42,654 nt of DNA from an uncultured Flavobacteriaceae bacterium (GTDB lineage Bacteria; Bacteroidota; Bacteroidia; Flavobacteriales; Flavobacteriaceae). This document shows, in pieces, positions 29,119 through 35,678 of the stretch. Each line of letters starts with the position of its first letter. Positions within the stretch are counted from its first letter, which is position 1. The notes beneath the pieces are model-generated. The model was given only the letters and a program-made list of their open reading frames with translations. It did not search any database and had not been told where the DNA came from. A program made the position numbers and the translations under genes. The DNA lies in contig CAJQMK010000029.1 in the NCBI GenBank assembly GCA_905479415.1, forward strand, positions 1 to 42,654. The letters run 5' to 3'.

Positions 29119-30513
29119 TTAGATTTTTTCAGCTAGTTCTAAAGCCTTGTTTAAGGCCCCTAGTTTATTATTAATTTCTTGTAATTCACTAATAGGATTA
29201 GATTTTGAGACAATACCTGCTCCAGCTTGAAAAATGAGTTCATGATTTTTACTCAAAAATGATCTTATAATAATAGCATGATTAAAATTACCTTCAAAAT
29301 CCATAAACCCAAGTGCTCCACCATAAAATGATCTGTTACAATTTTCATATTTGGAAATTAATTGCATAGCTCTGTGTTTTGGAGCTCCTGACAATGTACC
29401 CGCAGGAAAGGTGTCAGCTGCAATTTGTAGGGTGGAGGAATTATTTTTTTTAGTAGCGGTCACTTTGGAAACTAAATGAATAACATGTGAATAAAATTGT
29501 ATTTCTCTATCTTTTTCAACAGTAACGTTATTACCATTTCTGCTCAAATCATTTCTAGCTAAATCCACAAGCATCATGTGTTCGCTATTTTCTTTTTTAT
29601 CAATAGCTAATTTTTTAGCTTCAATCGAATCTTTATTATCATTTCCTGTTCTTATAAAAGTTCCTGCTATTGGATGAATTTCTGCTTTATTATTTTCAAC
29701 AACAAGTTGAGCTTCAGGCGAACTTCCAAATATTTTATAACTACCATAATCAAAATAAAATAAATAAGGAGAAGGATTTACTGATCTTAGAGCTCTATAT
29801 AAATTAAACTCATCACCTTCAAATTTTTGTTTGAACCTTCTTGACAATACTATTTGAAATACATCTCCTCTTTCACAATGTTTTATTCCTTTTTTAACTA
29901 AATCCAAATACTCATTATCTTTTAAATTTGATCTTATTTCTCCAGATTTTGAAAAAGGATATTTAGACAATTTATTAGACTTTATATGTTCTTCAATTTC
30001 ATCTAAATTATTTTTTTCATCATAGCTGTGGTGCAGTAAAATAGCTTCGTTATTGAAAACATTAATTATAATAATATTTGAATAAAATGCATAAAAAATA
30101 TCCGGAATTTCAATATCATTTTTTTTAGATTTTAATGAAATTTTTTCAAAATGTTTTACTGCATCATAATTCATATATCCAATTAATCCGCTCTCGAAAA
30201 ATTTTGAATCTGACTTTAAAGTTTTAAATCTTTTACAAAATAAGTTTAACTCTGAAACAACGTTAACTCGTTTATCAATTTCTTTGTTTTGACTTTTTTT
30301 ATCAGGAAATGTTTGATTTATTTGATCTCCTTTAACTTTAAATGTTGAAATTGGGTTAAAACACACATATGCATAACTATTATCGTTAGCTCCATAATCA
30401 CTACTTTCTAAAAGTATTGAATTAGAAAATTTATCTCTAATTTTTTGATATATACTAACGGGTGTCATTGTATCAGCTAATATTTTTTTTCTAAAAGTTT
30501 TTATTTTATACAC
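29119..30513 (-). CDS. trpE: Anthranilate synthase component I
   Basis: Chorismate-binding domain; LLESS near N-terminus; FPAGTLSGAPKHRAM; GTG start. Confidence 0.96.
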   Translation of the reverse strand: MYKIKTFRKKILADTMTPVSIYQKIRDKFSNSILLESSDYGANDNSYAYVCFNPISTFKVKGDQINQTFPDKKSQNKEIDKRVNVVSELNLFCKRFKTLKSDSKFFESGLIGYMNYDAVKHFEKISLKSKKNDIEIPDIFYAFYSNIIIINVFNNEAILLHHSYDEKNNLDEIEEHIKSNKLSKYPFSKSGEIRSNLKDNEYLDLVKKGIKHCERGDVFQIVLSRRFKQKFEGDEFNLYRALRSVNPSPYLFYFDYGSYKIFGSSPEAQLVVENNKAEIHPIAGTFIRTGNDNKDSIEAKKLAIDKKENSEHMMLVDLARNDLSRNGNNVTVEKDREIQFYSHVIHLVSKVTATKKNNSSTLQIAADTFPAGTLSGAPKHRAMQLISKYENCNRSFYGGALGFMDFEGNFNHAIIIRSFLSKNHELIFQAGAGIVSKSNPISELQEINNKLGALNKALELAEKI

Positions 30514-30531
30514 TATTATATGTTTTTAATT

Positions 30532-30562
30532 AAAAAAGGCTTGTCGATAAACAAGCCTTTTT
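30532..30562 (-). terminator. trp attenuator terminator hairpin
   Basis: Minus strand AAAAAGGCTTGT-TTATCG-ACAAGCCTTTTTT: 12-bp perfect stem plus U-run, ending 18 nt before the trpE start codon. Confidence 0.9.
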
Positions 30563-30593
30563 ATATTTGAACAAACTAAAAGATTATCTCGAC

Positions 30594-30647
30594 TTAATTA
30601 AAATTAAGTAAACGCCACCAATTAGAATGTGATAATTTTTTAAACAT
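30594..30647 (-). CDS. trpL: trp operon leader peptide MFKKLSHSNWWRLLNFN
   Basis: 17-aa ORF with tandem TGG TGG codons (30620-30615), followed by an AU hairpin and the terminator, upstream of trpE. Confidence 0.85.
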   Translation of the reverse strand: MFKKLSHSNWWRLLNFN

Positions 30648-30721: not shown

Positions 30722-31027
30722 ATGGATTTAGATCAAATAAAATGGGCAAGTGAGTCTGTTGAGACAAATAATATTATTCTCGACGTTAGAACACCAGAAG
30801 AATTTAGTGAAGGTTATATTGCTAATGCTACTAATTTAAACATATACGATGCAAATACATTTATGTCCAAAATTCAATCATATAACAAAGAAAATAGCTA
30901 TTACCTATATTGTAAATCAGGTGCTAGAAGTGCCCAAGCCTGTCAGATAATGAGTCAATTAGGCTTTAATAATGTTTATAATCTTCTTGGCGGTATTACA
31001 AATTGGAAAGGAGAAATTTCAAAATGA
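30722..31027 (+). CDS. Rhodanese-like domain protein
   Basis: ILDVRTPEEFSEGYI, YCKSGARSAQA active-site Cys loop. Confidence 0.92.
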   Translation: MDLDQIKWASESVETNNIILDVRTPEEFSEGYIANATNLNIYDANTFMSKIQSYNKENSYYLYCKSGARSAQACQIMSQLGFNNVYNLLGGITNWKGEISK

Positions 31028-35335: not shown

Positions 35336-35409
35336 GCCGATGTAGCTCAGCTGGCTAGAGCAGCTGATTTGTAATCAGCAGGTCGTGGGTTCGAGTCCCT
35401 CCATCGGCT
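35336..35409 (+). tRNA. tRNA-Thr(TGT)
   Basis: GCCGATG/CATCGGC acceptor, anticodon loop TTTGTAA. Confidence 0.95.
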
Positions 35410-35428
35410 CTTAGTTCTTTAAAATAAT

Positions 35429-35510
35429 GGGGAGATACTCAAGCGGCCAACGAGGGCAGACTGTAAATCTGCTGTTTTTAACTTCGCAGGTTCGAATCCT
35501 GCTCTCCCCA
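35429..35510 (+). tRNA. tRNA-Tyr(GTA)
   Basis: GGGGAGA/TCTCCCC acceptor, long variable arm, anticodon GTA. Confidence 0.95.
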
Positions 35511-35522
35511 CTAATTATTTAA

Positions 35523-35595
35523 GCGAGAGTAGCTCAGTTGGTAGAGCGTCAGCCTTCCAAGCTGAATGTCGCCGGTTCGAACCCGGTCTCTCGCT
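35523..35595 (+). tRNA. tRNA-Gly(TCC)
   Basis: GCGAGAG/CTCTCGC acceptor, anticodon loop CTTCCAA. Confidence 0.95.
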
Positions 35596-35606
35596 CAAAT
35601 TTTTCT

Positions 35607-35678
35607 GCCGGTGTAGCTCAGGGGTAGAGCGTTTCCTTGGTAAGGAAGAGGTCACGAGTTCAAATCTCGTCATTGGCT
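35607..35678 (+). tRNA. tRNA-Thr(GGT)
   Basis: GCCGGTG/CATTGGC acceptor (two G-U), anticodon loop TTGGTAA. Confidence 0.93.

Follow-up and report, generated by a model that had tools for sequence, protein, structure and literature searches.

The window analysed here, the whole stretch of 42,654 nucleotides, comes from a marine flavobacterium known from an incomplete genome (80.9% complete) and carries on its minus strand a trpEGDCFBA operon, the ORFs of which almost abut and which is confirmed by Pfam. The region from the trp promoter to the end of the operon comprises the following features:

30659-30652, minus strand: predicted -7 promoter box TATATTTG (Bacteroidetes sigma-A, TAnnTTTG), read from the sequence, with a TTG 20 nt upstream as the -33 element
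30647-30594, minus strand: trpL leader ORF, 17 codons (MFKKLSHSNWWRLLNFN, then a stop codon), with Trp codons 10-11 at 30620-30615
30609-30592, minus strand: AU-rich protector hairpin (1:2), ACTTAAT-TTTA-ATTAAGT, lying over the leader stop and folding from the predicted transcription start site
30593-30589, minus strand: antiterminator element GTCGA, directly 3′ of the leader stop, supported by covariation, swap tests and ribosome-state folds
30588-30578, minus strand: GATAATCTTTT, continuation of the antiterminator helix against the terminator 5′ arm (UUGUU + AAAAGG) in the stalled-state structure
30562-30532, minus strand: intrinsic terminator with a 12-13 bp stem, a 4-6 nt loop and a U-tract
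30513-29119, minus strand: trpE, anthranilate synthase component I, with a GTG start at 30513 (Pfam Anth_synt_I_N and Chorismate_bind)
29116-24203, minus strand: trpG, trpD, trpC, trpF, trpB and trpA, the remainder of the operon (Pfam GATase, Glycos_transf_3, IGPS, PRAI, PALP and Trp_syntA)

The leader ORF, the AU hairpin, the terminator and the GTG start all lie on the minus strand exactly where the earlier note had placed them. The terminator stem is formed by AAAAAGGCTTGT (30562-30551) and ACAAGCCTTTTT (30544-30533), with T's continuing to 30532; one additional G-U pair lengthens the stem to 13 bp. The GTCGA element is complementary to TCGAC (30547-30543), which comprises the terminator loop and the top of the 3′ arm, and the 3′ strand of the AU hairpin overlaps this element. 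The LLES-type motif that had been noticed in TrpE is present as L34-L35-E36-S37 and is invariant across a nine-sequence alignment; we take this motif to be tied to feedback inhibition by Trp, so that control of the pathway may be dual. The leader promoter shares its intergenic region with a divergent gene (30722-31027, plus strand) for a single-domain rhodanese-like protein, and elsewhere in the window four tRNA genes are clustered on the plus strand (35336-35678).

TrpE relatives were taken from 60 genomes and from named genomes, which gave 110 upstream regions (109 distinct, L018 and L063 being the same record), nearly all from Flavobacteriaceae. A leader ORF with WW or WWW lies upstream of trpE at 109 of these 110 loci, of which 106 were found by script and three (L067, L069 and L116) have the leader further upstream; thus the conservation in relatives on which the earlier note had made its proposal depend is found. 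The remaining locus, L094, has a terminator only and no leader, and its contig starts there, in unrelated-looking GC-rich sequence. WW or WWW also occurs at all 10 extra loci drawn from genera at a greater distance and from other families within the order; one of these loci (L145) was read by eye. The residues flanking the Trp codons diverge freely while the Trp codons themselves are kept. An intrinsic-terminator hairpin is present at 105 of the 106 loci scanned, and by inspection the counterparts of the AU hairpin in relatives are short hairpins that vary. A covariance model built from the copies in the genus (R1) matches next to trpE in all 17 genus genomes that have trpE of this type, and the element is absent from all five that do not; one further weak match (G020) precedes a second trpE copy on a short contig.

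Several loci depart from this plan in ways that are of interest in themselves. The second trpE copy (L153, G020:C77:1-660) follows a leader with a single Trp codon (MNKNLNTISWYSSRNLTIVI), with the stop element and the terminator kept; the short contig is perhaps a contaminant, or the leader is decaying. L067 and L116 were considered as exceptions lacking a leader ORF, and this was rejected because the leader sits upstream behind an inserted ORF. In these two different genomes the ORF is found in the roughly 400 nt before trpE, downstream of the attenuator, which is kept; judged by eye, the inserted ORF resembles GIY-YIG-type endonucleases. Tandem trp attenuators occur in one genus of a different family within the order (L148:1-520, G037:C26; L144:200-560, G052:C169), in which two successive WWW leader ORFs precede one trpE and a separate terminator-like hairpin follows each of the leaders; of these hairpins, the second in L148 escaped the script and was read by eye.

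It might be supposed that the hairpin does no more than end an upstream or short transcript, as an ordinary intrinsic terminator, and that the ORF with two Trp codons arose by chance, with no sensing of Trp at all, and the thermodynamic dominance of the terminator would agree with this. The gene upstream is divergent, however, so there is no upstream transcript to end. Furthermore, dinucleotide shuffling of the 200 nt before trpE yields a WW-bearing ORF in only 0.125% of cases (0.045% when ATG starts only are counted), and the retention of WW or WWW at 109 of 110 loci, against the divergence of the rest of the peptide, is far stronger evidence of a real leader than this shuffle frequency. A plain terminator is accordingly a most improbable account of the locus.

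The identity of the element was approached through Rfam. In a scan of the window at the gathering cut-off the attenuator is not reported, and at a relaxed threshold the best family by bits is RF01692, Bacteroid-trp, the “Bacteroidete tryptophan peptide leader RNA” described by Weinberg et al. (2010; PMC2864571, Table 1). The window copy scores 29.6 bits against a curated cut-off of 49 bits, which is a detection threshold rather than an anatomical feature; the description of the attenuator as unannotated therefore holds at that cut-off. Nine family-level relatives score above it. Copies at the same position in three genomes of the same genus (G002, G004 and G014; TrpE 81-82% identical) reach 57-61 bits and align along their length with the window copy, which is thus a homologous, divergent member of RF01692. 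The arrangement of the Bacteroidetes motif, in which a Trp-codon leader ORF and then a terminator arm (AAAAGGCUUGU) lie upstream of trp genes, is present in the window. In common with RF01692 the element has its position upstream of trp genes, the Trp-codon leader ORF, the terminator 5′ arm (AAAAAAGGCUUGUC) and the homology via the same-genus copies; it differs in falling below 49 bits and in having WW instead of WWW. The Rfam consensus hairpin, between the Trp codons and the stretch after the stop, contains many non-standard pairs when the window copy is aligned to it by cmscan, and the fold from the predicted start gives a shorter AU hairpin inside a weaker stem. The window element is an unreported copy of a known element and not a new kind. 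The RF01692 model reports only 3 of the 17 copies in the genus; as shown in its alignments to the copies, it ends in the terminator 5′ arm and contains neither the terminator 3′ arm nor the antiterminator between the stop element and the loop. No experimental test of the Bacteroidetes trp motif was found in the literature searched.

Covariation is seen in the pairing between the stop element of the leader and the loop and upper arms of the terminator. The leaders of most family members close with (G/T)TCG-TGA, the stop codon often lying inside the element, and the terminator loop and the start of the 3′ arm read TCACGAC, the complement of the leader end. Both sides change together within the genus, as in GTCGATA:TATCGAC (L007 and L008), GTCGAAA:TTTCGAC (L005) and CGCGA:TCGCG (L014-L019). 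A locus with a different terminator (L031) has CCGTAA:TTAACGG with one bulged base, and in other genera and families of the order GTGAGA:TCTCAC (L147), GCGAG:CTCGC (L150) and GAGAAG:CTTCTC (L152) were read from the sequences; no clear element is seen in the order-level relative L032. Pair 5 of the antiterminator is U-A, C-G or A-U, and pair 6 is G-C, U-A, A-U or G-U; the window copy has a G-A mismatch at pair 6, which is bypassed in the fold.

The MAFFT alignment (A2) shifts the stop elements of the two genus subclades by two columns relative to each other, and counting of the antiterminator was therefore done on an anchored composite alignment (A3). This is anchored by consensus and not by complementarity, except for L010, to which the offset of the neighbouring rows was assigned manually. 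On A3, 13 double-change cells are counted versus 3.1 in shuffles, and the covariation score is 0.317 versus 0.127 (reached in 0 of 500 shuffles) and collapses when the partner is slid. Since related rows of A3 are not independent, swap tests were added. Across 23 diverse leaders, pairing with their own terminator loops gives -9.28 kcal/mol versus -5.82 kcal/mol with swapped loops (0 of 20,000 permutations), and in a swap of loops within the genus none of 2000 permutations matches the own loops; these permutations also retain relatedness, and the pairing holds over several unrelated loop sequences. The terminator stem shows no covariation within the genus because it hardly varies there.

Folding with the ribosome placed at different positions separates two outcomes, the footprint being assumed to extend 12 nt past the start of the A-site codon. 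When, in the window copy, the ribosome is set on Trp codon 10 and the polymerase has just passed the loop, the antiterminator has a probability of about 1 at -9.8 kcal/mol, and the loop, the upper end of the 3′ arm and most of the 5′ arm of the terminator are taken up in it. The GTCGA/TCGAC pairing proposed earlier is therefore right, though understated, as about 15 pairs are present in the fold and involve the loop and almost all of the 5′ arm. A ribosome at the stop codon precludes the antiterminator in the fold and leaves the terminator to form. Averaged over 105 loci, 13.1 antiterminator pairs are made in the stalled state, compared with 7.3 for shuffled spacers and 2.0 for a ribosome at the stop; at least seven pairs form at all 105 loci when the ribosome is stalled and at 4% when it is at the stop. 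The mean of 8.4 pairs in folds with no ribosome fits a competition of upstream structure for the element. The same procedure applied to E. coli trpL as a control gives 5.7 (stalled) and 0.0 (at stop) antiterminator pairs. As judged by folding and covariation, antiterminator and terminator are mutually exclusive and are selected by the position of the ribosome. The full terminator (-16.9 kcal/mol) is favoured over the antiterminator (-9.8 kcal/mol) at equilibrium, and this holds for a stalled ribosome too, which implies that the switch would have to be kinetic, the choice being made during transcription.

A gap of 4 nt separates the TATATTTG box from the leader ATG downstream of it, the TTG lies 20 nt before the box, and this arrangement is kept in most of the family. 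In Flavobacterium psychrophilum the TAnnTTTG box occupies -12 to -5 (PMC9723704), which would place the transcription start at the A of the leader ATG (30647). On the same reckoning, 13 of the 18 genus rows have a predicted 5′ UTR of 0 nt and four others one of 1-3 nt, and the value is -2 in the last (L011), where an upstream ATG inside the promoter is used; about half of the family set falls at 0-5 nt. Thus, judging from the promoter sequence, the trp leader transcript is probably leaderless, with its AUG at the predicted start. As only 5.5% of mRNAs are leaderless in F. psychrophilum (PMC9723704), a leaderless trpL would be a noteworthy trait.

The element is very probably a ribosome-mediated transcription attenuator of the trpEGDCFBA operon and a divergent member of RF01692, as the conserved WW or WWW leader, the covarying antiterminator and the ribosome-state folds together support the attenuation that had been proposed for the locus. 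From its parts, their conservation and their covariation, which come from the sequence and its comparison, and from the two computed folding outcomes, we infer a start site, ribosome stalling, termination and a response to Trp that may be combined as follows. Polymerase would start at or beside the leader AUG, so that a ribosome loads with about 0 nt of 5′ UTR. When charged tRNA-Trp is scarce, the ribosome would stall on the two UGG codons and mask the 5′ strand of the AU hairpin, thereby exposing the GUCGA that follows the leader stop codon. Upon emergence of the loop of the terminator, GUCGAGAUAAUCUUUU would pair with this loop, with the 5′ arm and with the upper end of the 3′ arm, and the antiterminator so formed would block the terminator and allow trpE to be transcribed. 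With an ample supply of Trp, the ribosome would proceed to the stop codon and cover the element, the 12-13 bp terminator would fold, and transcription would end near 30532.

Two further explanations concern what senses Trp and what the ribosome controls. A T-box, a leader-binding protein of the TRAP type or a riboswitch might be considered, given that the stretch 30690-30500 is structured beyond chance (z = -4.0), a value that was left out of the argument on mechanism and that takes in untranscribed promoter DNA. However, neither a T-box nor any other regulatory RNA family reaches its cut-off in the window, conserved in-frame Trp codons would be unexpected for any of the three, and no array of (G/U)AG repeats is visible in the sequence; a sensor of this kind is extremely unlikely. 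Alternatively, the ribosome may govern the translation of trpE, in addition to or instead of its transcription, by translational attenuation or reinitiation. The U-tract of the terminator ends only 18 nt from the trpE GTG at 30513, and reinitiation from leader to gene has been proposed in bacteria, including Bacteroidetes (PMC4833913). Against this, the leader stop is 80 nt from trpE, compared with a leader-gene peak at about 11-14 bp in Bacteroidetes (PMC4833913), a GC-rich stem with U's after it is the hallmark of intrinsic terminators, and L067 and L116 keep the attenuator despite a whole ORF before trpE. Translational control therefore seems very unlikely, and transcription attenuation is the reading adopted here.

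A ribosome-binding site lies in the 5′ UTR of E. coli trpL. The window leader differs from the latter in that its AUG is predicted to lie at the 5′ end of the transcript. The two systems (E. coli trpL: NC_000913.3, 1323038-1323082) share a short WW leader peptide, an antiterminator freed by stalling and a terminator favoured when the ribosome is at the stop, and no sequence homology between them is claimed. In the E. coli fold an upstream GGGC pairs with the terminator 5′ arm only, whereas the pairing in the window also takes in the loop and the top of the 3′ arm. A parallel for the start is Sinorhizobium meliloti, in which the attenuator RNA (rnTrpL) starts with the trpL ATG (PMC7298713). A leaderless trp leader ORF is common to both, being predicted for the window, although S. 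meliloti belongs to a different phylum and its trpL has a different sequence. In S. meliloti the terminated RNA and the peptide act in trans (PMC7298713).

What is new here is the covarying antiterminator, its tie to the leader stop and the terminator loop, the probable leaderless start, and the observation that the Rfam model misses most copies in the genus. The general picture of attenuation is unchanged. It is tempting to speculate that the trp attenuator of Flavobacteriales represents a distinct build, in which a leaderless or nearly leaderless mRNA is combined with a short element, lying across or next to the leader stop codon, that matches the loop of the terminator itself; we regard the case for this as evenly balanced. 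If it is true, finishing the translation of the leader would itself hide the element, and the attenuator would rest on a lock-and-key sequence that drifts while its pairing is kept and that is absent from the Rfam model, with variants such as GUCGUGA:UCACGAC, GUCGAAA:UUUCGAC, CGCGA:UCGCG, GUGAGA:UCUCAC and GAGAAG:CUUCUC. Trp control in Bacteroidetes rests on a computationally found motif, for which the comparison yields a concrete and testable lock-and-key model with natural compensatory variants. It also suggests leaderless translation as a route by which leaders may be read in bacteria that make little use of Shine-Dalgarno sites.
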